A stretch of 64,000 nt of DNA from an uncultured Tateyamaria sp. (GTDB lineage: Bacteria > Pseudomonadota > Alphaproteobacteria > Rhodobacterales > Rhodobacteraceae): positions 186,001 through 250,000 of the forward strand of contig NZ_CANNES010000003.1 of NCBI RefSeq assembly GCF_947503705.1, in the 5' to 3' direction. The translations under genes were made by a program, and so were the position numbers. Below are positions 27,437 to 43,029 of the stretch, piece after piece; the first letter of the stretch is position 1, and the number at the start of each line of letters is the position of its first letter. The notes below the pieces were generated by a model that ran no database searches, was not told where the DNA came from, and saw only the letters and a program-made list of their open reading frames with translations.

Positions 27437-28309
27437 TCAGAGCAAACGGCCCGCCACCGCGTCAAGTTTGGCCATGAGGGCGGGGTCACGCGCCTCGGGT
27501 GCGGTCAGGATGGCGTATTCAAGCGCCCGGTCGCAGCCATGCGGGCAGGGTGCCCGATCGGCCCCGAGCAGGTCAGGCAGCCGTCGCACCATGTCGCGCC
27601 CCTTGTCGGCATTGCCCATCAGGGTCTGGATGATTTGCGTGACATCGACCTCGCCGTGGTCGGGGTGCCAGCTGTCATAATCGGTGATCATGGCGACGCT
27701 CGCATAGCACAGCTCGGCCTCGCGGGCGAGTTTGGCCTCGGGCATGTTGGTCATTCCGATCACATCCGCGCCCCAGCTTTCGCGGTACATCTTGCTTTCG
27801 GCCAGGGTGGAGAATTGCGGCCCTTCCATGGCCAGATAAGTGCCCCCGTCATGCACCGTGATCCCCGCATCAATTGCGGCCGCCAGGCAGGCCGCTGACA
27901 GCCGGGGGCAGGTGGGGTGCGCGACGCTCACATGGGCCACGCAGCCGGTGCCGAAAAAGGATTTTTCGCGGGCGAACGTCCGGTCAATGAATTGATCCAC
28001 AACGACAAAATCGCCCGGCGCCATTTCCTCGCGAAAGCTTCCGCAGGCGGAGATCGAGATCACATCCGTAACCCCGAGCCGTTTGAGCGCGTCGATATTG
28101 GCCCGGTAGGGCACGGTGGTCGGCGCATGCACATGGCCGCGCCCGTGCCGGGGCAGAAACACCATGTCCACCCCGCTGAGCCGCCCGGTCAGAAGCTGAT
28201 CCGACGGTGCCCCCCACGGCGTGTCGACCGTGACCCAATCGGCCCCTTCCAGCCCGTCAATGTCGTAAATGCCGGAGCCGCCGATCACGGCAATCTTGGT
28301 GTGGGTCAT
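27437..28309 (-). CDS. mtnP: S-methyl-5'-thioadenosine phosphorylase
   Basis: The 290-residue protein begins 'KIAVIGGSGIYDIDGLEGAD', the phosphate-binding opening of MTA phosphorylases. It then has 'LPRHGRGHVHAPTTVPYRAN', 'DVISISACGSFREEMAPGD' and 'MEGPQFSTLAESKMYRE', where the last holds the base/ribose site and 'VIGMTNMPEAKLAREAE' follows. It splits methylthioadenosine into adenine and methylthioribose-1-phosphate. It leads the mtnP-lysE-apt run; the next gene supplies export and the last reuses adenine. Confidence 0.95.
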   Translation of the reverse strand: MTHTKIAVIGGSGIYDIDGLEGADWVTVDTPWGAPSDQLLTGRLSGVDMVFLPRHGRGHVHAPTTVPYRANIDALKRLGVTDVISISACGSFREEMAPGDFVVVDQFIDRTFAREKSFFGTGCVAHVSVAHPTCPRLSAACLAAAIDAGITVHDGGTYLAMEGPQFSTLAESKMYRESWGADVIGMTNMPEAKLAREAELCYASVAMITDYDSWHPDHGEVDVTQIIQTLMGNADKGRDMVRRLPDLLGADRAPCPHGCDRALEYAILTAPEARDPALMAKLDAVAGRLL

Positions 28310-28531
28310 GGCGGGGCCTCGTGTTTGAAAATCTCGGTTCGGACACACGGAAAACCAGCCCGAAAAGCCCTTGCACCATGCGTACACAACCCGTGCACCG
28401 GCTGTACACCCCCACCGCGCGCTTGATCGTGCAGGGATATTACCGGGACAGGATCGGCTGGCGTATTGCTGTGCTCTGCCCGCGGGCAAAAGAGAAAAGA
28501 TTTGCGATATTATGCAACCTGACGTAGCGTT

Positions 28532-30643
28532 GTGCCGTTAAAAAAGACATTTTTGAAACGAGAGTTCATTTTGGCCGTCCCGGTGACATTGATACCTGTG
28601 GCCTTGTCCGCAGTGCGCAGCCTGGTGTTGCTGCGTGGGCGCGTGATCGACATCAAAGACCGCAAACGGCTCGATGATCCGCTGCCTGTGCTGCTGCCTG
28701 CCTTGCCGCCGACGCAGGTCGTCAACCCCACCAAAGACCCCGACCGGATGCGCGCGGCGTTTCGCGCCGACCCCGTCTTTCGCGCGGCGCTGGAGGTGCG
28801 GGGGCTGGAGGACAGCTTTGACGCCTTTGACAAGAATATCGATCCGCTGACCGGTGACGCGCTTGAGACCGAGCGCCATGCCGACATGTTCTGGCGCTTT
28901 ATGGGGCTCTATTATCAGGTCGAACGTCAGGACAGCGTCGCGGGCTTGTCTGATATCGAGGTGGATGCGGGCGGCATTGACCGGTTTCTCGTCCGCTCTG
29001 CCGCAGCGGGGGGCGGGTCGTCGGGGGTGCAGATCCTGCGGGCAACAGCCGAGGTGCTGGTCGAGTTTCTGGGCGACAATGCCAGCATCTTTCTGGCGCG
29101 CTCTTCCAACAAGGTGATCCTGTCTTCTGTGCTGCGCGAGTTTGCCACGCGCACTGATCTGGAGCAGGACACCCCGAAACGCATTCTGAAGATCCTCGTG
29201 GGCTCTGTCGCGGTGGCGGCGGCGGATCATGGGACGGAGGCCACGGACAATCCGGCGGCGGCGATCCTGTTTGGGGCGTTGGGCCGGGCGCGGCAGGAAT
29301 TCGGGGATGATTTCGTCATCCGAATCGCCTCGCATGAAGGGTTCACGACCGTTGTGTCGGATTGGATCGGGAGCCTTGCCGCCGACCCCTATCTGGTGGA
29401 GTTGCTGGCCGACGTCAAAGGGCTGGATGATGGCAGTTACGATCCGGCGGACCCCGGCACGCTGCCTGCGCGTTTGCAGCCGGTGTTTGGCGCGTTGAAA
29501 AACACGCTGGGCGTGATTGGCCGCAATATCGGCACCGCCGAGCCGTTGTCGCAGGAACAGACTTTTCGCGACGTGTTTGGCGCGGTTCTGAGCGGGGTGA
29601 CGCAGAACTCGGGCGCGCTTTTGGGTGAAAAGCTGGATGGCGACCGCTTTATGGCGTCGCTCTTGCAGGCGGTGATCACAACCGTGGGGCAGGCGGGTGC
29701 GGTGCAGAATAATGACCTGATTGCCCCGGTCTTTGCCGATCTGATGGCGCAGATGGCCGAAGTCTTGCCGACCCTTGGCCAGGACGCGGCGCTCAGTCGG
29801 GCCGAGGTGATCTTGCAGGATCTGGCCCTGCGCGTGACCTCGGGCGAGACGCAGGCCGTGCTGGCCGAGTTGGAGGATGCGGGCGGCGCGCGCTTTGCCC
29901 GGGCGCTGATGATCGAGGTGTTTACAATCGCCGGGCAGCGGTCCGATGTCTTGCTTGCGGGCGACAGTGAGCGTGTGCAGGCAGTGGCCCAGGCCCTTTT
30001 TGCGCAGATGCCGGACCTCTTGCGGACGGGCCTTGACCGCGATGGCGCGGTGCGGGTGTTCGAGGCGGTCATTGGCCAGCTTTATGCGGAGGACACACCG
30101 GATGGCGCTTTTGTGCTGGGGCTCTTGCCGCATCTGACGGGTCTGATGCGCGCGGTGGGTGAAGGTCGGCCCACGCTTGAAACCGACGCGGTCGAGGAGA
30201 TCCTGGGTCTGCTTGTGGCCCGTTTGGCCAGTGATCGCCCCGTTTGGCAGCAACTGCATGAAGCGCAGCAATTGCCGGTGCTGATCGCGGCGATTGCCGC
30301 CGTTCTCAAGGGCGACGCGGTGCCCAAGACCCTGTCGGTGATGACGGTTCTGGAAATTGCCGATGAGACCCTGGGCATTTTCGCGCGCCACGGTCTGAAA
30401 CTGTCTGATCTGGCCGCAGCAGCGGATGATCCGGAGGCGTTCCTGACCGAACGGGTCGAAGCCCTTTTGGGCCAGGCGGTCGAGGCGGCAGTGGCCAGGC
30501 TGGGCCGCGATGCCGGTGCGGATGATCTGGTGGACATCGTGCGCCGCATTCTGGCCGAAGCCTTGAAGGCCGATGACCCCATGGCGTTGTCTGCCGCCGA
30601 TCTGGCCGCCGTGATTGAGGCCGCCATAGCTGAATTGAGATGA
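28532..30643 (+). CDS. Membrane-anchored all-helical protein of unknown function
   Basis: The GTG at 28532 opens 703 residues. A single membrane segment (~12-34, 'FILAVPVTLIPVALSAVRSL') follows a basic start. The rest is a long soluble domain, rich in Ala, Leu, Asp and Val with regularly spaced amphipathic helices, resembling an alpha-solenoid in texture. No catalytic motif or known family is recognised. It is the first gene of a four-gene operon; the lipoprotein gene follows after 14 nt. It may be a scaffold in an envelope complex. Confidence 0.8.
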   Translation: MPLKKTFLKREFILAVPVTLIPVALSAVRSLVLLRGRVIDIKDRKRLDDPLPVLLPALPPTQVVNPTKDPDRMRAAFRADPVFRAALEVRGLEDSFDAFDKNIDPLTGDALETERHADMFWRFMGLYYQVERQDSVAGLSDIEVDAGGIDRFLVRSAAAGGGSSGVQILRATAEVLVEFLGDNASIFLARSSNKVILSSVLREFATRTDLEQDTPKRILKILVGSVAVAAADHGTEATDNPAAAILFGALGRARQEFGDDFVIRIASHEGFTTVVSDWIGSLAADPYLVELLADVKGLDDGSYDPADPGTLPARLQPVFGALKNTLGVIGRNIGTAEPLSQEQTFRDVFGAVLSGVTQNSGALLGEKLDGDRFMASLLQAVITTVGQAGAVQNNDLIAPVFADLMAQMAEVLPTLGQDAALSRAEVILQDLALRVTSGETQAVLAELEDAGGARFARALMIEVFTIAGQRSDVLLAGDSERVQAVAQALFAQMPDLLRTGLDRDGAVRVFEAVIGQLYAEDTPDGAFVLGLLPHLTGLMRAVGEGRPTLETDAVEEILGLLVARLASDRPVWQQLHEAQQLPVLIAAIAAVLKGDAVPKTLSVMTVLEIADETLGIFARHGLKLSDLAAAADDPEAFLTERVEALLGQAVEAAVARLGRDAGADDLVDIVRRILAEALKADDPMALSAADLAAVIEAAIAELR

Positions 30644-30657
30644 CGGGAGGACCGAAG

Positions 30658-31488
30658 ATGACACGTATCATGCTGGTGCTGACGCTTGTGACCGGGATTG
30701 TCGGCTGCACGGGGTTGCGCGGGGCCCTGAGTGACGCCGACCACGTGCGGGTGCGCGATGTGCAGGCGGTTTATGACGCGGACTTTCGCGCCGCAGTGGC
30801 CGCCGATGGGGTGGGCGTGGCCCCGGGTCGTTTTGCACGGACCCTGGCCGTCTTGCCCAGTGACACCAGCGGCCTCAGCCAGCCGGTGCGCGGCTTTTAT
30901 ACCTTGCTGGAAGGGCTGATCTATTTGCAGACCGGCCAATTGGGCCAAGCCAAGGCCATCGCCCCTGAGGTGACCGGGGCGGCGTCACGTCTGAACACGG
31001 GCGGCATTGCCGATCGCAATGCCATTATGGCCGAGAACTTTGCCGATCTGGTGGCCGCCCGCGAGGCAGAGGCGAGCCTTGCCAAGCTGAGCAGCAACAG
31101 TGCCGCCGACAATGCGCGGCGCGTGGCGGTGGTGCGCGATATCCAGACCCGGACCCGCGCGGTGACGGGCCGGTTGTGCAAGGCCGATGCGGGCGAGGGC
31201 GATGAGGGCAAGGCATTTGTCGCGGCCTATCAGGCCACGGCACTGGTGCAGGCAGACCGCGCCTTGCAACGCGCTTGTCTGCCTTTGGCGACCGATGCGG
31301 CGCTCTGTGCGGGCTTTCTGGGGGAACGCGCAAGTTTGCAGGACGCCCGTAATTTGATGGCCGCCTTTGGGGGGCCTCTGGCGGATGACAGCAGCCAGAT
31401 TGCCCGCCTGCGCCGCGATATTGAACGTGAATTGATTGCCAACCAGGACGGGGCGCCATTGGGCCCTGCCCAGAGCCCGTGCGGCTGA
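30658..31488 (+). CDS. Lipoprotein of unknown function
   Basis: The 276-residue protein starts at 30658 behind a good GGAGG site. It has a short lipoprotein signal with lipobox IVGC (Cys17). The mature part is mostly helical, with 'YTLLEGLIYLQTGQLGQAKA' suggesting TPR-like pairs, and it contains a few Cys residues in the C-terminal half. No family is recognised. Second gene of the 28532-35514 operon, probably an outer-membrane-tethered partner of the inner-membrane proteins. Confidence 0.8.
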   Translation: MTRIMLVLTLVTGIVGCTGLRGALSDADHVRVRDVQAVYDADFRAAVAADGVGVAPGRFARTLAVLPSDTSGLSQPVRGFYTLLEGLIYLQTGQLGQAKAIAPEVTGAASRLNTGGIADRNAIMAENFADLVAAREAEASLAKLSSNSAADNARRVAVVRDIQTRTRAVTGRLCKADAGEGDEGKAFVAAYQATALVQADRALQRACLPLATDAALCAGFLGERASLQDARNLMAAFGGPLADDSSQIARLRRDIERELIANQDGAPLGPAQSPCG

Positions 31489-31528
31489 CGGACGGCCCGG
31501 ACTGGTGACATAGCGAGAGGGAAAAGCC

Positions 31529-33496
31529 ATGGAAACGCCCGCAGAGCTGAAGCAGCGTTTGTTCAAAGAGGCCCAGGCGATGGTGAGCTACATCGCGGAC
31601 CGGGGCATCGGCAAGGAGTTGCCGGAGCCCACCGTTCTGGCCCTGCTTGATCTGGCCCCGGAAGACCGCGCCGCCGTGCCCATCGCCGACGTCATGGCCT
31701 TGCACCAAGGGTTGGCGCGTGCCGTGGCCCCGGCCTTTCCCGAGACCATCGAGAAACTGCACGAATACCGCATGATGCCTGGGTGGTTTCGACGCCTTGC
31801 GCCGCTGAACTCGATCTTGTGGTTGATCGTGGTTTCGGCTGTTTTGGTGCTTTTGTTCGGCTTTGGCCTGTCGGGGTGGAGCGACTTTAGCCCGGCGGAT
31901 CGGGCGGGGGGCACACCACCGGCTGTTTCCGCGGTACCAGAGGCGGGGAGCGTGGGCCTGCCGCCTGTTGAGGTTGAGCTTGCGACCGAGCCGGAGCGCA
32001 ACCCGTATTTCTTTCCCGTCATCGAATATCTGCATGGCCAATGCCGCTTTAGCGAAGAGGAGTTGATCGCATCCGCCGCAGGTCAGAACCAGGATTTGTT
32101 GCAGAGCCAGCGCGATGCCCTGATCAAGCAGCATTACGAGGATTGTCAGGCCGAGCGTCGTCCCATCCTGTTGCGTATCTTCCTGTTCTTTGGCGCTTTG
32201 GGGATGTTGGGCGCGGCCTATTCCTCGATCTATGACAGCTTTAGCTATATCCGCGAGGGCCGCTATGACATGCGGTTGGCCTCGACCTATTACGTGCGGA
32301 TTTTCCTTGGCGGGTTCTCTGGTATCCTGCTGGCCGAGCCGCTGAGCGATTATCTCGATCAGGGCGTTTTGTCCTCGGCTTTGCTGGCCTTTATCGGCGG
32401 GTTCTCGGCCCAGTTGGTTTATGATTTGTTGACCAAGCTGGTGGATTCCGTGGCCAACATGTTCCGCGAGGATCGCCGCAAGGAGCGCCAGAGCATTCTG
32501 GCGCAGGCCGAATATGGCACATTGGGTGTGATCCAGCAGCATGATGCGGCACAGCGCGAGGAGCTGGCCCGCATTCTGGCCGATGCCCAGCAAGAGCCGG
32601 ATGCGGATCGCCGGGCGACCGTGATGCAGGAGAAAATCCTTGGCATCATGTCGGGCGAGACCCCGAACCCGGTGGCGGTGGGGCCGCAATTCACCGTCAT
32701 TGAACGGTTGCAGCGGGCCCTTGGTCTGGCCGAGGTCAGCGTGCATGCCGCGCCGCTTTGGCCGGATGCGGCCCCCGGCGCTGTTGCGGCGGCCACGGCG
32801 GCGCAGACCGCCCTGCGCGATGCGTTGGAAAAACTGCAGGCCAGCGCAGGTGCGCCGCAGGATCTGGCGACGGCGCGTGCCGCGTTGGACCGTGTGGGGG
32901 GCGGTGATCTTGCCACAGCCGCTTTGACCGCTGCGATGGACGCGTTGCGGGGCGCGCTGAGCGGCCCGGCCTTGCGCGCCACGGCCAAGGGCGCGCTGGC
33001 GGCCAGCATTCACGTGGACGAGCCGTCGCTGCGCCGCTGGCGTCACGTGGCCTACCAGGCGGCCAGCCCAACGATCGCCTTGCTGCGTGATGTGGCCCCG
33101 GACGATCTGGGCAGTGGTCTGGCCTTGCCCGGTGGTGGCGAGATCACGGTGCAAGAGATGCTGACCCAGGATGCCGAAGCCCTTTTTGCCCGACCGGGCG
33201 GATTTGGGGATCGCGCGGGCTTTGATGCGGCCTATGAGGCGTGGATCGATGCCGCTGTTCGTCGCCTGCTGGCGGCGGAGTGGAATGCGACCCTTGCCCC
33301 GGTCACCGGCAGTGCGATGGACGGCGCGGCGTTGGTCAGTGCGTTGTCGCAGGTGTCTTCTGACGTGGCGGCGCGTGGCGGGCTGCAACGGCTGGAGCTG
33401 TTGAGCGGTGCGGTGCCCAAGACCACGGACCCCGAGGCGACGCTGGCCCGCCTGATGGCGCTGGTCGATACGCAACTGGCGGGGGAGGCAAGCTGA
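31529..33496 (+). CDS. Polytopic membrane protein with long helical C-terminal domain, unknown function
   Basis: The 655-residue protein has a soluble N-terminus (1-90), membrane segments at about 95-116, 211-232, 254-271 and 281-303, and a ~350-residue mainly helical C-terminal domain. Between segments 1 and 2 lies a ~90-residue loop with two Cys (172 and 206) that could form a disulfide outside the cytoplasm. Segments 3-4 ('LLAFIGGFSAQLVYDLL') recall a motif seen in various uncharacterised membrane proteins. It begins 40 nt after the lipoprotein gene and overlaps the hydrolase gene (TGATG). Confidence 0.82.
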   Translation: METPAELKQRLFKEAQAMVSYIADRGIGKELPEPTVLALLDLAPEDRAAVPIADVMALHQGLARAVAPAFPETIEKLHEYRMMPGWFRRLAPLNSILWLIVVSAVLVLLFGFGLSGWSDFSPADRAGGTPPAVSAVPEAGSVGLPPVEVELATEPERNPYFFPVIEYLHGQCRFSEEELIASAAGQNQDLLQSQRDALIKQHYEDCQAERRPILLRIFLFFGALGMLGAAYSSIYDSFSYIREGRYDMRLASTYYVRIFLGGFSGILLAEPLSDYLDQGVLSSALLAFIGGFSAQLVYDLLTKLVDSVANMFREDRRKERQSILAQAEYGTLGVIQQHDAAQREELARILADAQQEPDADRRATVMQEKILGIMSGETPNPVAVGPQFTVIERLQRALGLAEVSVHAAPLWPDAAPGAVAAATAAQTALRDALEKLQASAGAPQDLATARAALDRVGGGDLATAALTAAMDALRGALSGPALRATAKGALAASIHVDEPSLRRWRHVAYQAASPTIALLRDVAPDDLGSGLALPGGGEITVQEMLTQDAEALFARPGGFGDRAGFDAAYEAWIDAAVRRLLAAEWNATLAPVTGSAMDGAALVSALSQVSSDVAARGGLQRLELLSGAVPKTTDPEATLARLMALVDTQLAGEAS

Positions 33497-35514
33497 TGTT
33501 GGGCGCGTTTTCCAGACTGTTGAAATACGAACTGCCCATGATGCAGGGCGACGATGTGCAAAACGTGCAAGAGGCGCTGGCCCTGCAAGGGGTGCTGCAT
33601 GCATCGGGGGCGGATGGGCTGTTTGGCCCGGGCACCAAAAGTGCGGTCGAGGCCTTTCAGCGCCAGCATGGGTTGGGCGTGGACGGCATTGTCGGGCGCA
33701 ACACGCATGACACCCTGGCCACCTTGGTGGGCGGCGGGAGTGCCGGTAGTGGTGGCGGGGGCGGCAGGGCCGGGTCCGAGCCGGTGACACCTGTTGCAGG
33801 TCTGGAGGGCCGTGCGGTGCCTGCCGACTGGATGCCTGCCGCGTCGATGAAACGGATCATCCTGCACTGGACCGGTGGTGCCTATGACCCCAGCGGTGTG
33901 GACAAGAAACATTATCATCTATTGATCGACGGCGACGGCCAGCTGCATCGCGGCAATCATCCGATCACCGCCAATGTGCCCCCGCTGAGCAGTGGCGGCT
34001 ATGCGGCCCATACCAAAAGCTGCAACAGCCATTCGATTGGTCTGTCCTTGTGTTCGATGGGCGGTGACGCGCGTGAAAACCCGTTCCGTCCCGGCCCGTT
34101 TCCGATCACGCGCGCGCAGTGGGCCGTGATGGATCAGGTCGTGGCCGAGCTGTGCCTGCGTTACGGCATCGAGGTGTCGCGCGAAACGGTTCTGGGCCAT
34201 GGCGAAGTGCAGGCCAATCTGGGCATCACCCAGAATGGCAAGTGGGACCCGATGGCGGTGGAGTGGGACCCTGGCCGCCCCTACCGGGAAGTCGGAGATG
34301 GTATTCGCGCGCGGGTTGCAGGCATTCTGGACGCGCTCAAGCACCCGACGGCGGTGATCATCGACGCCGATGCCGAGACCGAAGTTGTGCCAACCGAAAC
34401 CGTCACCGTGGATGGGGAGCCGCTGCGCGGTGCCGCCTTTGACGGGCGGATCTGGCTGGACCTGAACCATCTGGTGACCCATTTTGGCTGGGATGCGCCG
34501 GTCATCGACGAGAAAGATGGCGTTGCCATGATCTCTGACCCGGCGCTGCGCTTTGCGATTGTGCGCACGACGGGGGCGGATGGTTTTGATCTGACCTGGG
34601 TCGAGGTGGCCGAGGTCAGCGAACGGCTGGGGTTGATCCTGCGCGAGGATGCGCGGGGTGACCTGCACCTGGAGACGCCAAGTGATGCGCCCGAAAAGGT
34701 GATCGTCAAGCGGGGACAGACCCTGTCACAGATCGCACAGCTTCACCTGGGCGACGCCAACCGCTGGACCGAGTTGCGGATGGAGGATGGCACCCCCTTT
34801 GATGAGGAGAGCGCCAAACGGCTGAAAGTGGGGGCAGTGGTTTTGCTGCCTGCGGGCCAGGACGCAGCCAAGCGGGCGGCTGCCAGCCCCGGCACGCGGC
34901 TCAAGGTCGACGAGATTGCCCAGATTGCCGAGCGGATTGCCAAGCTGGAGGGCGGTGGCGCCACCATGCGCAAGACCCGTGCGGGCGCTGTCGACGCCAT
35001 CCTGCGCGCCTGTGTCGAAAACAAGGTCAACGACCTGTCGCATCAGGCCTATATCCTGGCCACAGCCTATCACGAGACCAATCTGGGCCAGTTCATGAAA
35101 GAGCTTTGGGGGCCGACGGCGATCCAGAAAACCTATGGTCACCGCCTTGGAAATCGCGGACCGGCGGAGGGCAAGCTTTTCATGGGGCGTGGGTTTGTCC
35201 AGATCACAGGTCGCAATAACTATCAGAAATACAGTGACATTTTCCGACAGGATTTTGTCGGCAACCCCGATCTGGTGGCTGATCCCAAGATCGCGGCGCA
35301 GATATTGGTGCGCGGCATGGCCGAGTTCGGATTTACTGGCAAGGGTCTGTTGTCTGACATGGGGCTGGATGGCGATTTTGACTGGTTCAACGCCCGCAGC
35401 CTGATCAATGGCGACAAGAACAAGGGCGGCGATCAACGCTATCCCGGTCAGACCAAGGGCCATGGGATTGCCGACAAGGGACGTGCCTATCGCCAGATCA
35501 TTGCGATGATCTGA
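33496..35514 (+). CDS. Modular peptidoglycan hydrolase: PG-binding, amidase, LysM-like and GH19-like domains
   Basis: The 672 residues show a PG_binding_1 domain (~14-77, 'DGLFGPGTKSAVEAFQRQHG'), a Gly-rich linker (79-93), and an Amidase_2 domain (~119-260) with likely zinc ligands His124 ('ILHWTG') and His235 ('GHGE') and 'GKWDP'. A stalk-like region (~300-350) and a LysM-like module (~402-453) follow. A GH19/chitinase-like domain (~490-672) carries Glu527 in 'AYHETN' and 'GRGFVQITGRNNY'. No signal peptide is visible, as in phage endolysins. It ends the operon and overlaps the membrane-protein gene. Confidence 0.88.
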   Translation: MLGAFSRLLKYELPMMQGDDVQNVQEALALQGVLHASGADGLFGPGTKSAVEAFQRQHGLGVDGIVGRNTHDTLATLVGGGSAGSGGGGGRAGSEPVTPVAGLEGRAVPADWMPAASMKRIILHWTGGAYDPSGVDKKHYHLLIDGDGQLHRGNHPITANVPPLSSGGYAAHTKSCNSHSIGLSLCSMGGDARENPFRPGPFPITRAQWAVMDQVVAELCLRYGIEVSRETVLGHGEVQANLGITQNGKWDPMAVEWDPGRPYREVGDGIRARVAGILDALKHPTAVIIDADAETEVVPTETVTVDGEPLRGAAFDGRIWLDLNHLVTHFGWDAPVIDEKDGVAMISDPALRFAIVRTTGADGFDLTWVEVAEVSERLGLILREDARGDLHLETPSDAPEKVIVKRGQTLSQIAQLHLGDANRWTELRMEDGTPFDEESAKRLKVGAVVLLPAGQDAAKRAAASPGTRLKVDEIAQIAERIAKLEGGGATMRKTRAGAVDAILRACVENKVNDLSHQAYILATAYHETNLGQFMKELWGPTAIQKTYGHRLGNRGPAEGKLFMGRGFVQITGRNNYQKYSDIFRQDFVGNPDLVADPKIAAQILVRGMAEFGFTGKGLLSDMGLDGDFDWFNARSLINGDKNKGGDQRYPGQTKGHGIADKGRAYRQIIAMI

Positions 35515-35525
35515 GGCGCTTTGTC

Positions 35526-36359
35526 TTATGCGCTGCCCGGCTCCGCCGACCGTTGGGCGGCTTGTAGCGCCCTGATCATGCGCGCGTTTTCCAGTGCGAT
35601 GACGCTTTGCGCGGCAAAAAGCTGGGCCAATCGGGTCGTGTCGTCGGAAAAAGGGCGCACCGTCTGACGGTAGATCGTAAAGGCCCCCACCAGCCGGTCA
35701 CCTGCCAGCATCGGGATCGCCACAAAGGACCGCGCCCCGCCCAGATCGGCCGTGGCAAAGCGCAAGGGGTCGTCGCTTTGGTAGATCGCCTCGGATTTGA
35801 CGTCGATGATGTTGACGATACTTTGCTGCGCGACCATCCGGCCCAGGCCGGTTTGCGCACTGACGGCAAAGACGCCCTGATCCTCAAGCCAGGATTTGAA
35901 CGCGCCCGGGATGCCCGCGCTGTGGTTCGCGACAAAGCGCTGGGCGTCGCGATATTCGAACAGGATGCCAAATTCGGCGTCACATAATTCAAGCGCATAG
36001 TTCAGGATCAGTGGCATCACCGCGTCCAGATCGCCCTGTGCCGTGCCGATGATCCGCAGCACCTCGCCCAGAGCCTTTTCGCGGCTAGTTGCCTCTTCGA
36101 GGCTCAGTGCCAGTTCAGAGACCACCATGGCCATTTCGTCCTGGCTGCGCGGTGGTGCGGCGGCGGCGGCCCCGTTGAGCCGGGTGGCCAGGTCGAGTTT
36201 CGAGGACACGTCAAGCTTGCGGTAGATCGTGGCCAGATGGGTGCGTACCGTGCTGGGCGCGATGCCAAGGGTGCCTGCGATGGTCTGGTAGGTTTGCCCA
36301 CCGGCGTAGAATTGGGCGATCTGCAATTCTCTTTGGCTGAGGCCTGTTTGATCCGCCAC
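35526..36359 (-). CDS. Regulator with N-terminal LuxR-type HTH and C-terminal GAF domain
   Basis: From a GTG start at 36359 behind AAGGA the product has 277 residues. Residues ~4-60 form a LuxR/NarL helix-turn-helix ('LSQRELQIAQFYAGGQTYQT', 'APSTVRTHLATIYRKLDV'). Residues ~115-270 form a GAF domain ('GVFAVSAQTGLGRMVAQQSI', 'FVAIPMLAGDRLVGAFTIYR'). The DNA-binding part comes first, the reverse of the usual order. It converges on the envelope operon with an 11-bp gap and diverges from the NTF2-like gene; either could be its target. Confidence 0.85.
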   Translation of the reverse strand: MADQTGLSQRELQIAQFYAGGQTYQTIAGTLGIAPSTVRTHLATIYRKLDVSSKLDLATRLNGAAAAAPPRSQDEMAMVVSELALSLEEATSREKALGEVLRIIGTAQGDLDAVMPLILNYALELCDAEFGILFEYRDAQRFVANHSAGIPGAFKSWLEDQGVFAVSAQTGLGRMVAQQSIVNIIDVKSEAIYQSDDPLRFATADLGGARSFVAIPMLAGDRLVGAFTIYRQTVRPFSDDTTRLAQLFAAQSVIALENARMIRALQAAQRSAEPGSA

Positions 36360-36538
36360 GCTGTTTCCTTCATCGCCTGCGACCTGATGCCAAGCGTGGC
36401 CAGAAGCGGGGCGAAACGCAATCCTGCAAATGCTGTAGATCGCGTACTGCACCTGCGCGTCTGAATTTAAAGCATTTGCGGGATAGGCCGTGGTCGCGTT
36501 CTGGTGCAGACTGCGCAGGTATTGAAAAGGGACACACC

Positions 36539-36952
36539 ATGACGGATTTTGAGACTGCCAAAGCGTTTTTCGAAGCTTGCGAGACCGGTAAGGGCTGGGA
36601 CGTGTGCAAGGCCTGGTGCCAGGACGATGCCGGTTTTGCCTGCCAGGCGGATGCGTTGGCCGATGTAACGACCCTGGCGGCCTATGCCGACTGGATGAAG
36701 GGGCTTTTGACCCCGGTGCCTGACGGTCGCTATGTACTGACCGCCTTTGCAGCCGATGCGGAACGGGGCACGGTTGTCGCGGCGGCCGAATTTCACGGGA
36801 CCCAGACCGGCGAGGGTGGCCCGGTGCCGCCCACGGGCAAGGCGGTGGTGTCGGATTACGCCTATGTCATGCGCCTTGAGGGCGGCAAGATCAGTCACAT
36901 GACCAAGATCTGGAACGACGTGCACGCGCTGCGCGGTCTTGGCTGGACCTGA
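36539..36952 (+). CDS. NTF2-like / SnoaL-type protein
   Basis: The 137-residue protein starts at 36539 behind AAGGGA. The cone-shaped NTF2 fold is suggested by 'FETAKAFFEACETGKGWDVC', 'TLAAYADWMKGLL' and the C-terminal 'YVMRLEGGKISHMTKIWND'. Such proteins are small-molecule isomerases or binding modules. It overlaps the MFS gene (TGATG), and a DUF1185 gene follows, so the three probably act on one metabolite. Confidence 0.75.
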   Translation: MTDFETAKAFFEACETGKGWDVCKAWCQDDAGFACQADALADVTTLAAYADWMKGLLTPVPDGRYVLTAFAADAERGTVVAAAEFHGTQTGEGGPVPPTGKAVVSDYAYVMRLEGGKISHMTKIWNDVHALRGLGWT

Positions 36953-38124
36953 TGCGCTGGCGCATGCTGGGCCTGTTGTTTCTGGCCCGCATTGCGCTTG
37001 GGTTTCAGTTTCAGACTGTGGCCTCTGTCGGTGACGATCTGGTGGTGGCCTTTGGTCTGGACTACGTCGCCATCGGGTTTCTGATCGGTCTGTTCATGGC
37101 GCCGGGCCTTTTTCTGGCGATCCCGGCGGGCTATTGGGGCGGCTATGTGACTGACCGCCTGATGGTGGTGTTTGGCCTTGGCGCTTTGGCCCTTGGGGGG
37201 CTTGTGTCGTCGGTAGCGGTGGATGGGTTTATGATCGGGGCCGGGCGCGTGCTGTCGGGGGCCGGTTTTCTCTTTGCGAACCTGTATTTCACCAAGATGG
37301 TTGCCGATTGGTTTGAAGGCCACGAGATCGCGACGGCCATGGGTATTTTCGTGATGAGTTGGCCGCTGGGCATTGCCATGGGGCAGGTGGGCCATGCCTG
37401 GCTGGCAGTGGCTTATGGGTGGCATATCCCGTTTCAGGTAGCGTCGCTCCATTGCCTGGCGGCGGCCCTGTCCGTCTTTGCGTTTTATCGCGTGCCGCAG
37501 GCTTTGCCCCGCGCAACCGGGGGGGCGGCGGCCGTGTTGACCGGGCAGGAGTGGCGTCTGCTGCTTTGCGCGGCAACGGCCTGGGCCGTGTTCAATGCAG
37601 CTTACGTCATCTACCTCGCCTTTGGTCCCAAGGTGCTGGAGGGGCTGGGCCACACGGCTATCGCGGCGGCGGGCATCATCAGCATCGGCAGTTGGATCAT
37701 GACCGCTTCGGGGGCCGCCTGCGGGCAGGTGGTGGACCGTTTTGGCGGGCGCAGCCTTGTCCTGACGCTCTGTATGGCGGGGGCCTGTGTGGCCCTGTTG
37801 TTGCTGAGCGTGCCAGGGGCGGGCCTTGGGGCCAGTGTCCTTTTTGGGCTGGTGGGCATGGCCCCGGCGGGGGTCATCATGGCCATGGCGGGCCAAGCGA
37901 TGCGGCCACAGGTGCGGGCCTTTGGCATGGGGATCTTTTTCACCATCTATTACGCCATCATGCTGGTGACCCCCCCGGTTGCGGGTGCGCTTTTGGATGC
38001 GACGGGGGATTCGCGCGCACCGATATGGCTGGCGGTTGCCCTTTTTGCCTTTGTTGTGCCGCTTGGCTTTGTTTTTCAACATATCAAGGGGCGAACCACC
38101 CCCGGCCTGCATCAGAAAGCGTGA
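36952..38124 (+). CDS. MFS transporter
   Basis: The 390-residue protein has about 12 membrane helices. It carries the loop 2-3 signature region 'GYWGGYVTDRLMVVFGLGAL', and 'GQVVDRFGGRSLVLTLCMAG' in the second half. It resembles nitrate/nitrite- or cyanate-type MFS carriers in general form, but the substrate cannot be assigned. It is translationally coupled to the upstream NTF2-like gene and 2 nt before the DUF1185 gene. Confidence 0.88.
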   Translation: MRWRMLGLLFLARIALGFQFQTVASVGDDLVVAFGLDYVAIGFLIGLFMAPGLFLAIPAGYWGGYVTDRLMVVFGLGALALGGLVSSVAVDGFMIGAGRVLSGAGFLFANLYFTKMVADWFEGHEIATAMGIFVMSWPLGIAMGQVGHAWLAVAYGWHIPFQVASLHCLAAALSVFAFYRVPQALPRATGGAAAVLTGQEWRLLLCAATAWAVFNAAYVIYLAFGPKVLEGLGHTAIAAAGIISIGSWIMTASGAACGQVVDRFGGRSLVLTLCMAGACVALLLLSVPGAGLGASVLFGLVGMAPAGVIMAMAGQAMRPQVRAFGMGIFFTIYYAIMLVTPPVAGALLDATGDSRAPIWLAVALFAFVVPLGFVFQHIKGRTTPGLHQKA

Positions 38125-38126
38125 CC

Positions 38127-38678
38127 ATGGACGTCAGAAAAACACTGTTTATCAAAGAGATCATCCATTCGGACGAGATAGGCACCCCTTGTGTGCCAAT
38201 TACGCGGGTGGCGGGGATGGCGGTCGTGCGAAACCCGTTTGCAGGGCTGCATCAGGCGGATCTGTCGCCGCTTTTCGAGGTGGCGGCGCGGCTGGGCGAC
38301 AGTCTGACCACTGAGCTGGTGGCGATGCTGGGCGGCGCGCCCCTGTGTTATGGCAAGGCGGCCCTTGTCGGCACGCTGGGCGCGATGGAGCATGGGGCCG
38401 CCGTGTTGCACCCGACGCTGGGCAAGCCGGTGCGTGCGGCTGTGGGCGGGGGCGCGTCCCTGATGCCGTCAAACCACAAGGTGGGCGCGTTGGGCAGTAG
38501 CATTGATCTGCCCTTGGGCCACAAGGACGAGGCGTGGTCTTTTGATCATATTGACACGATGACCCTGAGCGTGGCGGATGGGCCGCGCGCGGATGAAATT
38601 GTGCTCTGTATCGGGCTGTCGGACGGGACGCGGGCCCATCCGCGCGTGGGCAAGGGGCCAAGTGGCGCCACGCTGTGA
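38127..38678 (+). CDS. DUF1185 'amino acid synthesis' family protein
   Basis: The 183-residue protein has the family-typical 'RVAGMAVVRNPFAG', 'GKAALVGTLGAMEHGAAVLH' and 'LPLGHKDEAWSFDHIDTMTL' segments. The family name comes from weak genetic evidence; the reaction is unknown. It is closely linked to an MFS carrier and an NTF2-like protein, suggesting a small catabolic or amide/peptide-handling cluster. Confidence 0.82.
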   Translation: MDVRKTLFIKEIIHSDEIGTPCVPITRVAGMAVVRNPFAGLHQADLSPLFEVAARLGDSLTTELVAMLGGAPLCYGKAALVGTLGAMEHGAAVLHPTLGKPVRAAVGGGASLMPSNHKVGALGSSIDLPLGHKDEAWSFDHIDTMTLSVADGPRADEIVLCIGLSDGTRAHPRVGKGPSGATL

Positions 38679-38694
38679 CCTGCGGGCGCGGCGC

Positions 38695-39087
38695 TTAGCC
38701 TGCGCAGGGATCTTGGTCGCTGGTTTCGGTGTGGGGCAAAGCGTAATAATCGCCCTTCGCCTCCGTATGGATTTGTTTGACGATCTTCAACCGGGTTGGT
38801 CCGTCTAAACCGCCCGCGAAGAGGGACGTGACCGCGCGGTTTCCGGGCTGCCAGAACAACGGGCTGCCGCATGTGCCGCAAAATCCGCGTCGCGCCTTGT
38901 CTGAAGACTGATACCATGTCACGGCGCCGGAAATGGTCAAGCTGGCGGTCGCGGTCTGGGTCGCTGCCACATAGTGACCGCTGGTTTTTCGGCACTGAAT
39001 ACAATGACATGCGATGATCTGGCGCAGTGGGCCTGCGACGTTGTAGGTGATGGCACCGCACAAGCATCCGCCCTTGTGGTTCGTCAT
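38695..39087 (-). CDS. GFA / CENP-V family zinc protein
   Basis: This 130-residue protein has the cysteine pattern of the family: 'GGCLCGAITY', 'ACHCIQCRKTSG' and 'FCGTCGSPLFW'. Relatives were first described as glutathione-dependent formaldehyde-activating enzymes, though most members are uncharacterised. It stands alone, converging on the DUF1185 gene with a 16-bp gap. Confidence 0.9.
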   Translation of the reverse strand: MTNHKGGCLCGAITYNVAGPLRQIIACHCIQCRKTSGHYVAATQTATASLTISGAVTWYQSSDKARRGFCGTCGSPLFWQPGNRAVTSLFAGGLDGPTRLKIVKQIHTEAKGDYYALPHTETSDQDPCAG

Positions 39088-39304
39088 GGCCGCCTCCTGT
39101 TTTCATAGCCGGTCATAGGCAACGGTAGGTGCTTTGCCCTTAGTCGGACCATTACGCGACGACCAAGTGCGGCCGCTTGCGACATGGCGGTATTGCACCA
39201 TAACCGGCCCGAAACCGGGCCCATGGCGTGGATCATCTGTTAGATTGATGAGTGCGGGAGATTGACTGGCTGCGTCCGGGCGTGTGGCCGCCGGATATCC
39301 GATG

Positions 39305-39757
39305 TCACAGTGGTAATTCGGACGTGGCCTTTTCCGTCGATACCACTATGGAGGTGCGAAATTTCCGCACATTCTTGTCGGCAAAGAAAAAGCGGTGGGT
39401 AAAGGCCTCGTAACCGGCGATGTCCTTGGCCATGACGATCAGAATGAAATCGGCCTCGCCCGCGATGCAATAGAAATGGGTGACTTGCGGGTCTGCGCGG
39501 GCCTTGCGCTTGAAAGCGTCGATCTGGTCCAGCCTGTCACGTTCCAGTTCGACCGACACGATGGCCGTGATACCCAGGCCCACCTGTTTGGGGTCGAGGA
39601 TCGCCACGTCGCGCTGGATCACACCCGCGTCGCGCAGGGCACGCATCCGCCGCTGCACCGATGCGGTAGAGATGCCCGTAGCCTCGGCGAGGCTGTGAAC
39701 GGGGGTCTTGGCATTGCGTTGCAACTGGTCAAGAAGTTTGCGGTCGGTGGAGTCCAT
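39305..39757 (-). CDS. Lrp/AsnC-family transcriptional regulator
   Basis: The 150-residue protein has an N-terminal HTH ('MDSTDRKLLDQLQRNAKTPV', 'ASVQRRMRALRDAGVI') and the C-terminal RAM ligand domain ('QVTHFYCIAGEADFILIVMA'). The start at 39757 matches the family. It is divergent from azlCD, which it likely controls in response to a branched-chain or other amino acid. Confidence 0.92.
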   Translation of the reverse strand: MDSTDRKLLDQLQRNAKTPVHSLAEATGISTASVQRRMRALRDAGVIQRDVAILDPKQVGLGITAIVSVELERDRLDQIDAFKRKARADPQVTHFYCIAGEADFILIVMAKDIAGYEAFTHRFFFADKNVRKFRTSIVVSTEKATSELPL

Positions 39758-39775
39758 GATCTGATTTTCCCTGAA

Positions 39776-39834
39776 TGCGATGTTCAATGATGGGATCGCA
39801 TCGCAATTATACGAATTTTTATATTCATCGCATC
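39776..39834. promoter_or_regulatory. Repeated CATCGC boxes, probable AsnC-family binding region
   Basis: Between the divergent AsnC-type regulator and azlC, the hexamer CATCGC occurs at 39799-39804 and 39826-39831 on plus and at 39777-39782 on minus, around an AT-rich core (TTATACGAATTTTTATATT). Such phased boxes with an A/T centre suit an Lrp-type octamer. Confidence 0.45.
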
Positions 39835-39859
39835 AAGGAAATCCCTTATCCCTTTGCCT

Positions 39860-40537
39860 ATGAAACATGGTGCGCTTGCTGTTCTTCCCTTGGCCTTGGG
39901 TGCCGCCCTTTATGGCTTTGCCTTTGGGTTGTTGGCCGCCCAGGTCGGTTTCCCATGGTGGGGCGTTGGGGTGATGAGTGCCGCCGTGCATGCGGGATCA
40001 TCGCAAATTGTCGCTGTTGAGCAGTTTGCCTCAACCCAGGCGGTGTTGGGGGCCGCATTGGCGGGGGCCGCGCTGAACCTGCGCTATGTGGGCATCGTGG
40101 CCTCATTGTCTGACGTGCTTGCTGGGCTGTCCTTGCGTGCCAAGATGGTGGCCATTCACATCACGGGCGACGAAAACTGGGCGCTGACCATGGCAGAGCG
40201 GGCCAAATCGCCCGATATCGGCGCCCGGTTTCTGATCGGGTCGGGGGCTGTGATGATCTGTGTCTGGACAGCATCGACCACGGCAGGCGCGCTTGCGGGC
40301 ACGGTGCTGCCCGATCTGGAGCGGTTTGGCCTTGGCTTTGCCTTTACCGCCGCCTTTATCGCAATGGCGCGGGGCCTTTGGCGGGGGCGGGCGCAGGTGC
40401 TGCCCTGGGCCGTGGCGGGTTTGGCGACGATTGCCGTGGTTCTGCTGGGCCTTCCCAAAGCCTATGCCATCGTGGTGGGAACCGCCTGCGGGCTGGTTGT
40501 GTCCTTTGCGCTGCGTCGCCGGAGTGTGTTGGCATGA
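39860..40537 (+). CDS. azlC: AzlC-family branched-chain amino acid exporter, large subunit
   Basis: The 225-residue polytopic protein has 'VLPLALGAALYGFAFGLLAA' and 'SAAVHAGSSQIVAVEQFAS', hallmarks of AzlC. With AzlD it exports branched-chain or similar amino acids. The ATG at 39860 is chosen; the nearest purine-rich site is rather far, and an in-frame TTG at 39854 is possible. Its stop overlaps azlD (ATGA). The divergent AsnC-type regulator fits control by amino acids. Confidence 0.9.
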   Translation: MKHGALAVLPLALGAALYGFAFGLLAAQVGFPWWGVGVMSAAVHAGSSQIVAVEQFASTQAVLGAALAGAALNLRYVGIVASLSDVLAGLSLRAKMVAIHITGDENWALTMAERAKSPDIGARFLIGSGAVMICVWTASTTAGALAGTVLPDLERFGLGFAFTAAFIAMARGLWRGRAQVLPWAVAGLATIAVVLLGLPKAYAIVVGTACGLVVSFALRRRSVLA

Positions 40538-40830
40538 CCGGCGCGCAATGGGCCGTGATCGGCATTCTGGCGCTGTCAGCCTTTGCCATCCGCCTTTTGG
40601 GCCTGATTGCGGGGGCCCGAATTCAGGCGTCGCGCCATGCATGGATGCTGGAGGATTTGCCGGGCCTGATCATTGTCAGTCTGGTTGCCGCCTCTCTTGC
40701 AGGAGCGCCGACGGGGACCTGGGCCGCCGCCTGTGTGGCCCTCGGGGTGGCAGTTGTGACCAATCATGTGATTGCCACGATGGTTCTGGGTGTCATTGCC
40801 TTTGCCGCGCTGGGCATGATCGGGTTTTGA
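40534..40830 (+). CDS. azlD: AzlD-family branched-chain amino acid exporter, small subunit
   Basis: This 98-residue protein has about three to four membrane helices and the family feature 'AFAIRLLGLIAGARIQASRH' followed by 'WMLEDLPGLIIVSLVAASLA'. It is translationally coupled to azlC and required with it for export. It converges on the cupin gene with ~30 bp between. Confidence 0.9.
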   Translation: MTGAQWAVIGILALSAFAIRLLGLIAGARIQASRHAWMLEDLPGLIIVSLVAASLAGAPTGTWAAACVALGVAVVTNHVIATMVLGVIAFAALGMIGF

Positions 40831-40859
40831 CCGGATGTGCCCGGGTTGCCGTGGTCGGA

Positions 40860-41417
40860 TCACCAGCCTTTGGCATCCGGGCCAAAGTCGTATGGGATGA
40901 GCGGTGTGTCCAGCGGCAGGCGGATTTTGTCCGGGGCGCTGTGATCATATTGAATGGTGGGGAAGTTCACGACCAAGACCTCGGTGTCGCCGATATTGTG
41001 GTCGGCGTGCCAGACATTGCTGGGCACGCTGACGATCTTGGGTTGATCCTCGCTCAGCACGATTTTTGAGACTTTGCCATAGGTGCTGCTGTCTGGGCGC
41101 ACGTCGTAGAGCACCAACTCCATCTCGCCCTTGAGCAGGAAATAGCGGTCTTCGTGACGCTGGTGCAGCCCCCATCCCTTGATGGCGCCGGGGCGGATTG
41201 AAAACTGGTAGACAAATTCAATCGGGTCGGGGTGCCAGTTCCAGCGCGTATCGAACATTTCGGTGACCGATCCGCGATCATCAATATGTTTGATCGAGGC
41301 TCGCTCGCGCATCCCGTCAGGCAATTGTCGGATCGGTACGCCGTCGTCTGATACGGTGCGTTCATCCGCGATGGCGGCGGCAATCGTCTTTTCGAGCAGG
41401 GACTCTGGTTTGGTCAT
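40860..41417 (-). CDS. RmlC-like cupin, sugar epimerase family
   Basis: The 185-residue protein resembles dTDP-4-dehydrorhamnose 3,5-epimerase-type cupins: 'SIKHIDDRGSVTEMFDTRW', 'GLHQRHEDRYFLLKGEMELV' and 'VPSNVWHADHNIGDTEVLVV'. It could act on a nucleotide sugar. The neighbouring glycosyltransferase, ~50 bp upstream on the same strand, makes a role in surface polysaccharide likely. Confidence 0.75.
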   Translation of the reverse strand: MTKPESLLEKTIAAAIADERTVSDDGVPIRQLPDGMRERASIKHIDDRGSVTEMFDTRWNWHPDPIEFVYQFSIRPGAIKGWGLHQRHEDRYFLLKGEMELVLYDVRPDSSTYGKVSKIVLSEDQPKIVSVPSNVWHADHNIGDTEVLVVNFPTIQYDHSAPDKIRLPLDTPLIPYDFGPDAKGW

Positions 41418-41466
41418 ATTACATCTTTATTCAAATAGCTGCCGCCGAGCCATTGCCCGTTTGCGC

Positions 41467-42774
41467 TTAGCGGTCAAGCGGGGGGCGTGCCTGGGTCAGC
41501 CAGGGCCGTTTGGCGGATGGCGTCTGGAAGGATTTGACCACGGATTGCGCATTTTGGAAATCCTGTCCGCTGCGCCACGCCTGCGGTGTGTCGTCCAGAA
41601 TGACCTGGGCTGTTGCGGCATCACCCGCGCGCGCGGCCAGCACCGCCCTGAGCAACTGTGCGGGACGGGCCGTACCGTCCAACCGCGCTTCGAACAGGGC
41701 GACACCGGCCATCGCGGCATCGGGGAAGTCCTGGTTGAGCAGATGCAGCGCCTTGATCCAGCGGGGCCGCTGCGTGCCCAACATATCGACCAGCGCCTGT
41801 TCCTGCGCGGCGTCGCCCGGCGCACCCACGAGGCTCCGCAGCGTCAGCCAGGCCAATGTCGCCTGATCCAGTTGCGCGGCTGTCAGCGGCACATCCATCA
41901 AAGCGCCGTTGACGGCAATGTTGGGTGTCGCGTCCTGGTCCACCGGCCGCAACCCGGCCCGGTCAAAGGCCTCGGCCAGCGTCGCGCATTCGGCCCCGCC
42001 CGAAACGGCAAAGACGCGTGCGATGCGGTCATAGACGCTGGCTTTTTTGCGCAAGCTGTCCATAAAGCCAGGCCTGCCGATCCGGGCGAGCCAGGGCCCA
42101 AGCTCAACCGCGCGAAATTCGGGCGTTGCGCCAAAGCGTTTGTCGGTGTGGCTGGTCAGCTTGAGCGCGCCGCAGCGCATGGTGCTGGCAATCGACAGTT
42201 CCGGCAGGCGCATGAATTTGGCCCACATATACTGGTCTGATTGACCTTCCTCCCAGGGCGCATCTGTCCAGCCTTCGGGCAATTTGAGGTAGGTGTCGCG
42301 CCGGTAGCCCACATAGTTCAGACCGCTGGACACGTGTTTGCGGTTTTGCGCGGCGGCCCTGAATTCAGGTTTGCCATGGTTCAGCACGCCACTTTGCAAG
42401 CTGCCATCGGGCAGCAATCTGACCTCGGACTGGTTGACCCACTCCGCCTCGCGCAGGAGCGCGCCCATGATGTCCAGCTGATCCGGCGCCCAGAGGTCAT
42501 CATCGCTGAGGTGGCAGACAACGTCGGCGTCGCTGTCGCGGATGATGGCGTCGCGATAGGTTTCGCCATAGCGGGGCCCTTTGGGATGGGGCACATAGCG
42601 GATGCGCGCATCCTGCGCTGTGAATTCGGCCGCGATCTGGTTCATACGCGGGGGCGCGCCGTCGCCCACGATGACCAGTTCCCAATCCTCGATCTGCTGG
42701 GCGCGCACACTGGCCACCGACATAAAGAGCGCGTCGGCGTGGTTATAGGTTGGACACAGGATCAGGTATTTCAC
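41467..42774 (-). CDS. Family 2 glycosyltransferase with C-terminal extension
   Basis: The 435-residue protein has an N-terminal GT-A domain ('MKYLILCPTYNHADALFMSV', 'WELVIVGDGAP') with the metal motif SDDD in 'VVCHLSDDDLWAPDQL'. The C-terminal ~170 residues are helical and Ala-rich, possibly TPR-like. It probably adds a sugar to a surface glycan. The downstream cupin epimerase-like gene may provide the donor sugar. Confidence 0.85.
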   Translation of the reverse strand: MKYLILCPTYNHADALFMSVASVRAQQIEDWELVIVGDGAPPRMNQIAAEFTAQDARIRYVPHPKGPRYGETYRDAIIRDSDADVVCHLSDDDLWAPDQLDIMGALLREAEWVNQSEVRLLPDGSLQSGVLNHGKPEFRAAAQNRKHVSSGLNYVGYRRDTYLKLPEGWTDAPWEEGQSDQYMWAKFMRLPELSIASTMRCGALKLTSHTDKRFGATPEFRAVELGPWLARIGRPGFMDSLRKKASVYDRIARVFAVSGGAECATLAEAFDRAGLRPVDQDATPNIAVNGALMDVPLTAAQLDQATLAWLTLRSLVGAPGDAAQEQALVDMLGTQRPRWIKALHLLNQDFPDAAMAGVALFEARLDGTARPAQLLRAVLAARAGDAATAQVILDDTPQAWRSGQDFQNAQSVVKSFQTPSAKRPWLTQARPPLDR

Positions 42775-43029
42775 GGCTGTAGCGCCTTTGTGATGCGTGA
42801 TGATATGTGCGGGCGAGCGCGGTGTCGGAGTGTAGCGCGGCGCAGGTACAGAACCACACCTGCGGGCCTGTCACCAGATGGCACTCCGCGTGCTCTGTGC
42901 CTTCGCATCATCTGTGCCCCATTTGCTATGCTTTGCCTTCATAGCCGCCGCGCGCCCAGCACCCATGGCCATTGCTGCGGTGATGCGTTAGGTGCCCGCC
43001 GTAACCCGCAGACCAGCAGAGGGGCGTTC

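Follow-up and report, generated by a model that had tools for sequence, protein, structure and literature searches.

What does an operon do when its last gene encodes a peptidoglycan hydrolase resembling a phage endolysin and its other three genes encode proteins of no recognised family? This question is raised by four genes at positions 28,532 to 35,514 of a 64,000-nucleotide stretch of the genome of an uncultured Tateyamaria sp. (contig NZ_CANNES010000003.1, positions 186,001 to 250,000), referred to here as the window. An earlier annotation made from the letters alone (the sequence-only reading) had described them as an uncharacterised envelope operon, with wall remodelling, lysis or release, and export as its possible roles. 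Of these options, lysis or release fits best: our preferred reading, to which we give somewhat less than an even chance, is that the operon is an accessory, self-contained wall-breaching device working like a holin-endolysin cassette. The membrane partners of the hydrolase are, as judged from their sequences, not recognisable holins or spanins, and the operon looks home-made rather than borrowed from a phage.

The four plus-strand open reading frames (ORFs; 28532-30643, 30658-31488, 31529-33496 and 33496-35514) agree with those first reported, with gaps of 14 nt between genes 1 and 2 and 40 nt between genes 2 and 3, and an overlap of 1 nt between genes 3 and 4. The frame of gene 1 stands, but its start does not: translation most likely begins at TTG 28571 rather than GTG 28532, since GAGAG is found 6 nt 5' of the TTG and, among ten aligned homologues, five start at the TTG column, four within 9 columns of it and one far upstream. 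A scan of the region for sigma-70-like promoters returned 0 sites against 1.2 expected, a result of little weight for this group of bacteria.

Gene 4 had been said to combine peptidoglycan-binding, Amidase_2, LysM-like and GH19-like domains. PG_binding_1 (60.9 bits) and Amidase_2 (52.6 bits, cut-off 26) score over their Pfam cut-offs. The GH19 part falls just under its own (23.5 bits, cut-off 25.5; the Paracoccus homologue passes at 26.9) and is upheld by its matches to a PHROG endolysin family (1e-27) and to the solved endolysin 9ms7 (9.5e-15), while the LysM-like stretch is weak and stays under the cut-off (14.5 bits against 20.9; E 0.035, compared with 0.0072 in the homologue from genome G289). 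The top three PHROG matches of the protein are lysis families, including phrog_5867 (2.7e-33) and phrog_181 (1.1e-27). In an alignment of the four full-length homologues (window, Roseovarius albus, G289 and Paracoccus), the amidase residues H124, H235, K249 and D251 are invariant in all four, which we take to match the zinc/catalytic pattern (His, His, Asp, Lys) of the AmiD/T7 lysozyme type. The GH19 residues H526, E527, E536, Q569, T571 and N638 are likewise invariant (4/4); when these were compared by eye with the residues given for PaGH19Lys (PMC12329726), the spacing of E527 and E536 (9 residues) was that of the catalytic pair E51/E60. Gene 4 is an amidase joined to a GH19 enzyme, probably a muramidase, with both active sites conserved. 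Its product has neither a signal peptide nor a transmembrane (TM) segment: no hydrophobic 19-mer lies above the threshold anywhere in the protein, and the maximum in the first 60 residues is 0.8.

Holin-endolysin sets and the type 10 secretion system (T10SS) keep their enzyme inside until the membrane releases it, as set out in PMC10847048. For a signal-less cutter with two catalytic domains that is regularly encoded next to a membrane protein and a lipoprotein, the simplest view is likewise that the enzyme would be kept inside until membrane release. Signal-less wall hydrolases are also typical of the effectors of contractile systems. The last of the four rivals considered (in order, a non-lytic envelope machine, anti-phage lysis, a diverged phage cassette and a delivered effector) makes gene 4 such an effector, delivered to competitors, with gene 2 or gene 3 as immunity, a part that the lipoprotein partner could play. 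VipB, the sheath family of the type VI secretion system (T6SS), was found in none of four carriers or records (the window's genome, G289, the Roseovarius albus genome and plasmid pTAV3), other contractile systems not having been searched for; because this T6SS marker is missing, we regard the effector rival as most improbable.

Gene 3 is, as first described, a four-segment membrane protein with a long helical tail: three stretches exceed the hydropathy threshold, and the predicted model (pLDDT 77.8, pTM 0.44), which is almost entirely helix, contains four membrane-length helices. Its homologues are 32-98% identical and the TM core is strongly conserved; every one of the 16 rows of the close family keeps the two cysteines of the TM1-TM2 loop. 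Counts of lysine and arginine (K/R) are 5.4 in the N-terminal flank, 2.8 in loop 2 and 4.9 at the start of the tail, with none in loop 3, and the likely topology has both termini inside, the cysteine loop in the periplasm and the tail in the cytoplasm. Gene 3 has no Pfam or NCBIfam family at E<=1, no PADLOC match and one PHROG match at E 0.26. It thus lacks the MotA/ExbB domain expected of an energised wall machine of the MotAB, TolQR or Zorya type.

Gene 1 is rare: a search of 5.8 billion proteins gave 12 matches (one being the copy in the window, the others 49-79% identical), and in the relatives search it occurs in 1 of 101 genomes, its own. Its model is all-helical with a repeat-like body, at low confidence (pLDDT 65.9, pTM 0.37). 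In 9/9 sequences, its own included, the 15 residues after a single N-terminal hydrophobic stretch contain 3-6 K/R; these charges favour a body that is probably cytoplasmic, so contact of gene 1 with the wall is not supported. The sequence-only reading had the set span the inner membrane, the wall and the outer membrane. This is not supported, as gene 4 lacks a signal or TM segment and the charges would place both the gene 1 body and the gene 3 tail in the cytoplasm. The lipoprotein nature of gene 2 is confirmed, with lipobox IVGC in the window and LAAC, LSGC and LAGC in homologous and counterpart lipoproteins. Gene 2 is 47% identical to its Roseovarius albus counterpart. BLASTP detects no similarity between it and the lipoprotein encoded in the G289 plasmid form, which is itself related to the one from Paracoccus. 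It has no significant family match (best PHROG E 0.024).

Genes 1-3 have no significant match in Pfam, NCBIfam, PHROG or PADLOC, and none of the four operon proteins matches PADLOC at E<=1, so that the view of the operon as uncharacterised, with no named system, survives a search of four family libraries. Literature searches found nothing on this operon, which does not prove that it is unpublished. A phage or secretion module among genes 1-3, for which a check had been proposed, was not seen either: there is no significant PHROG match, and tblastn against 50,697 phage records gave no match. These results bear on the rival in which the operon is a domesticated lysis cassette of a phage or gene transfer agent, or a T10SS proper (holin, endolysin, i-spanin, o-spanin), whose members other than gene 4 have diverged beyond recognition. 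Gene 4 is indeed like a phage endolysin, and its three companions (membrane protein, lipoprotein and membrane-proximal helical protein) bear a superficial likeness to a holin and spanins. We consider this origin very unlikely: apart from the absence of phage matches, no PHROG match of genes 1-3 is better than E 0.02, and their products are of 690, 276 and 655 amino acids (aa).

Weak Foldseek matches of gene 3 to small viral membrane proteins (E 1.4-4.6) speak for the same rival. They comprise a 110-aa phage protein (E 1.4, prob 0.99), a 131-aa protein (E 3.0, prob 0.87) and the 108-aa holin of Olleya phage Harreka_1 (E 4.6, prob 0.80, root-mean-square deviation 8.0). For the last, an ORF of matching length beside the phage's GH19 gene was taken as the UniProt 'Holin', the record itself calling it hypothetical. 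This ORF aligned collinearly with gene 3 (hhalign E 0.034, probability 1.5%), and decoy membrane pieces reached its score in 0/59 cases with profile A3 and in 15/59 with profile A4. The comparison is not robust, and the holin resemblance was dropped because the two profiles disagree. A search for relatives of the Harreka_1 ORF returned nothing but the ORF itself and two contigs in which the matching ORFs look like other proteins. The PHROG matches of gene 3 at E<=1 include no holin family, and the same is true of the matches listed for 15 rows from its wider family.

The gene set is rare, travels as a unit and is horizontally shuffled in the Rhodobacter group. A gene 3 profile matched 2/394 genomes of the family, 4/385 of the class and 2/299 of the phylum, the window's own genome included each time; the other class genomes are G584, G755 and G497 (a weak and partial match, E 8.6e-7), and in the class of G1013 the match was to G1013 itself (1/78). 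A gene 3 scan of genome contigs found one locus, in Roseovarius albus. Full-length gene 4 occurs in 3/292 genomes of the order, own included, with partial matches only in the other 101 order genomes that match; with its own profile it was found in four of nine genomes or records chosen for carrying gene 3-family matches, and it is also present in two plasmid records. Wherever full-length gene 4 was found, its cluster also includes gene 3 and a lipoprotein gene.

The four-gene order is repeated in Roseovarius albus (L003 7058-14040), and five more contigs (sizes 14,542; 5,082,563; 12,888; 301,872; 15,467) carry homologues of genes 1 and 3, their co-location having been judged from equal sizes. 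In two of these five, the locus tags of the two genes differ by 10, which would fit one gene between them. A three-gene form without gene 1 (gene 3, lipoprotein, gene 4) is found on the Paracoccus plasmids pTAV3 and pFER3, in G959 (Paracoccus lineage) and on a G289 contig with RepC, RepB and ParA-type genes; a profile search for gene 1 gave no match in any of G289, G959 and pTAV3. The conserved order expected of the four genes is therefore seen in Roseovarius albus and not in the Paracoccus plasmids, G959 or G289, which lack gene 1. As to whether the genes rarely co-occur, the set is rare and gene 3 accompanies every full-length gene 4, whereas gene 1 belongs to one form only. The four-gene set is taken to be beyond chance because its order recurs elsewhere and homologues of genes 1 and 3 exist.

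The N-terminal and TM part of gene 3 defines a wider family (65 matches, 48 of them new, nearly all of 330-380 aa) whose named members come from Burkholderia, Paraburkholderia, Ralstonia and their family. These membrane proteins of about 340 aa have the TM core of gene 3 and its helical N-terminal domain; they stand alone and have no tail, whereas gene 3 of the Rhodobacterales operon has an extra one. The Burkholderia stagnalis record, the only Burkholderia record checked, has no full-length gene 4. There, the gene 3-family protein has 351 aa and the gene after it encodes a Bestrophin-like protein (L012 9512-11444); the one family member scanned has no Pfam match. In G584 (L021 9191-13146), the gene 3-family protein precedes OmpA, MotA/ExbB-like (under the Pfam cut-off) and OmpA/MotB-like genes.

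The G584 neighbourhood is one of three observations that favour a non-lytic envelope machine, in which the partners would export gene 4 independently of Sec and open the wall locally, for remodelling or to let a filament or cargo through; gene 3 would be the platform and the lipoprotein the outer-membrane end. A lipoprotein and a membrane protein accompany gene 4 in both forms of the cluster, and the peptidoglycan-binding and LysM-like modules would anchor the enzyme. Gene 4 nevertheless has no export signal and there is no known transporter among the four genes; two strong hydrolase domains would seem to exceed the needs of local trimming, and the window and G289 lipoproteins share no BLASTP similarity. 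We think this machine rather unlikely.

According to the preferred reading of a wall-breaching device, gene 4 would be stored in the cytoplasm, tethered or restrained by the cytoplasmic tail of gene 3 and, in the longer form, by a gene 1 scaffold as well. On a signal, gene 3 would open a path through the inner membrane or destabilise it, the cysteine-bearing periplasmic loop and the lipoprotein would lie on the far side, and gene 4 would then reach the wall, the cell lysing or opening locally. The purpose may be altruistic death, release of cargo or vesicles, or defence. The fuller proposal is possible though doubtful: a bacterial-born, non-phage cassette for lysis or wall opening in which a tailed four-TM family protein controls a cytoplasmic bi-catalytic hydrolase, together with a lipoprotein and a helical-repeat scaffold, and which has spread as an accessory element. 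The features are collected in Table 1.

Table 1. Positions of the operon, its domains and the surrounding block in the window.
Feature	Position	Strand	Basis
Gene 1, 690-aa helical protein; likely TTG start (alternative GTG 28532, 703 aa)	28571..30643	+	
Gene 2, 276-aa lipoprotein, lipobox IVGC	30658..31488	+	
Gene 3, 655-aa membrane protein: helical N-terminal domain, four TM, cysteine loop, ~340-aa helical tail	31529..33496	+	
Gene 3 TM region, residues ~96-297, best-conserved part	31814..32419	+	
Gene 4, 672-aa endolysin-like peptidoglycan hydrolase, no predicted signal peptide	33496..35514	+	
Gene 4 PG_binding_1 domain, residues 17-74	33544..33717	+	Pfam
Gene 4 Amidase_2 domain, residues 117-252	33844..34251	+	Pfam, invariant catalytic residues
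Gene 4 LysM-like stretch	34702..34746	+	Under Pfam cut-off
Gene 4 GH19 endolysin domain	34948..35505	+	Endolysin matches, invariant catalytic residues
Accessory block of ~14.7 kb between mtnP-like (phosphorylase-superfamily) and sulfate-permease (SulP) genes	28304..43029		

The mtnP-like gene is present in all eight same-genus genomes, six of which were compared at this site. These six sister species share a syntenic left flank (hypothetical protein, FAD oxidase, phosphoribosyltransferase, LysE, mtnP-like), and the distance from the mtnP-like to the sulfate-permease gene (43030-44658 in the window) is 1.3-2.2 kb in them as against 14.7 kb in the window. Genes 1-4 and the six genes to their right have no match in 20 kb of each sister. 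On this comparison the operon belongs to an accessory block, and the site itself is variable. Such scattered occurrence, on plasmids and at a chromosomal position that varies, fits a dispensable device. The rest of the block encodes LuxR-GAF, SnoaL, MFS, AA_synth, GFA, AsnC, AzlC, AzlD, dTDP-sugar-isomerase/cupin-like and glycosyltransferase proteins, and one sister species has a pentapeptide-repeat-like protein (just under the Pfam cut-off) between the mtnP-like and sulfate-permease genes.

The surroundings are of another kind in Roseovarius albus. One flank of the operon (L003 1429-6163) encodes a SIR2-like protein, a small gene and an LmuB/SMC-like ATPase, with a piece of an IS110-type transposase gene in between; the other (L003 18510-21691) holds a Septu pair (best PADLOC E 2.3e-221 for PtuA and 1.3e-85 for PtuB). 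This position between defence genes, together with a rare and sporadic occurrence, agrees with abortive infection, in which gene 1 or gene 3 would sense infection or membrane damage and gene 4 would lyse the cell before phage maturation. Such a role is quite unlikely in our judgement: defence-rich surroundings were found in one of four independent contexts, the neighbours in the other three being partly scanned, and genes 1-4 themselves have no PADLOC match. Five neighbours in the window, three in G289 and two plus a patatin in Paracoccus gave weak PADLOC matches only (best E 4.7e-4, LuxR-type, and 1.6e-4, a RepC protein), the rest there not having been scanned with PADLOC. Directly 3' of the Roseovarius albus operon (L003 14647-18500) lie genes for a pentapeptide-repeat protein and a weakly alpha/beta-hydrolase-like protein. 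Upstream of the three-gene form on Paracoccus pTAV3 lies a gene (L010 5836-8622) for a patatin-like phospholipase of 928 aa, several stretches of which look hydrophobic; this gene was rejected as a fifth member, as the gap is 0.8 kb and other genes take that place in G289.

Several observations weigh against the wall-breaching device. Gene 3 has no significant holin-family or phage match, and the usual holin is about one sixth of its size. Spanin families are absent from the PHROG matches of genes 1 and 2 (an Rz-like model has matches in 2/15 rows of the gene 3 family, at E 0.11 at best), and because holin and spanin families were not found, the operon is not assigned to the holin-endolysin or T10SS sets. 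The topology of gene 3 is only moderately supported because K/R also occur in the long first loop (about 8, against 13 aspartates and glutamates, as means over 100 residues), and the cysteine pair is missing in G289, the Paracoccus plasmid form and the Burkholderia relatives. The gene 3 TM part also occurs with no full-length gene 4 in five of the nine genomes or records (G584, G755, G497 with its weak match, G1013 and B. stagnalis), and its older function therefore differs. The structural comparison that had been proposed for the unknown proteins, carried out with models of genes 1 and 3, rests on middling confidence and gave no match at E<=0.001. Finally, the block neighbours in the window offer no functional hint and no clue to a trigger.

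If the wall-breaching device is nonetheless real, bacteria possess a means of endolysin release of their own making, whose membrane parts have no relation to the holins and spanins of phages, and programmed wall breach outside phages extends beyond recycled phage cassettes. The forms with and without gene 1 would then serve as a test set for the way in which a hydrolase is retained in the cytoplasm and let go.

Among known systems, both phages and bacteria offer points of comparison. The Amidase_2 domain of gene 4 is 41-52% identical to endolysins of Sinorhizobium phage PBC5 and Rhodobacter phages, but none of the 691 phage records matching gene 4 covers 80% of it. PaGH19Lys (PA0629), from a cryptic prophage of Pseudomonas aeruginosa, is a muramidase that PMC12329726 presents as small, single-domain and located in a prophage cluster; in gene 4, by contrast, the GH19 domain is fused to amidase, peptidoglycan-binding and LysM-like domains, and no phage genes were found beside it. 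Like the T10SS/phage lysis cassette YenLC of Yersinia entomophaga, as described in PMC10847048, the operon joins a signal-less hydrolase to a membrane protein and a lipoprotein outside phages. Unlike YenLC, it has large helical partners in place of a recognisable small holin or spanin pair, and a hydrolase with two catalytic domains and binding modules. The unit is new in composition; if the preferred reading is right, the principle on which it works is one already known.

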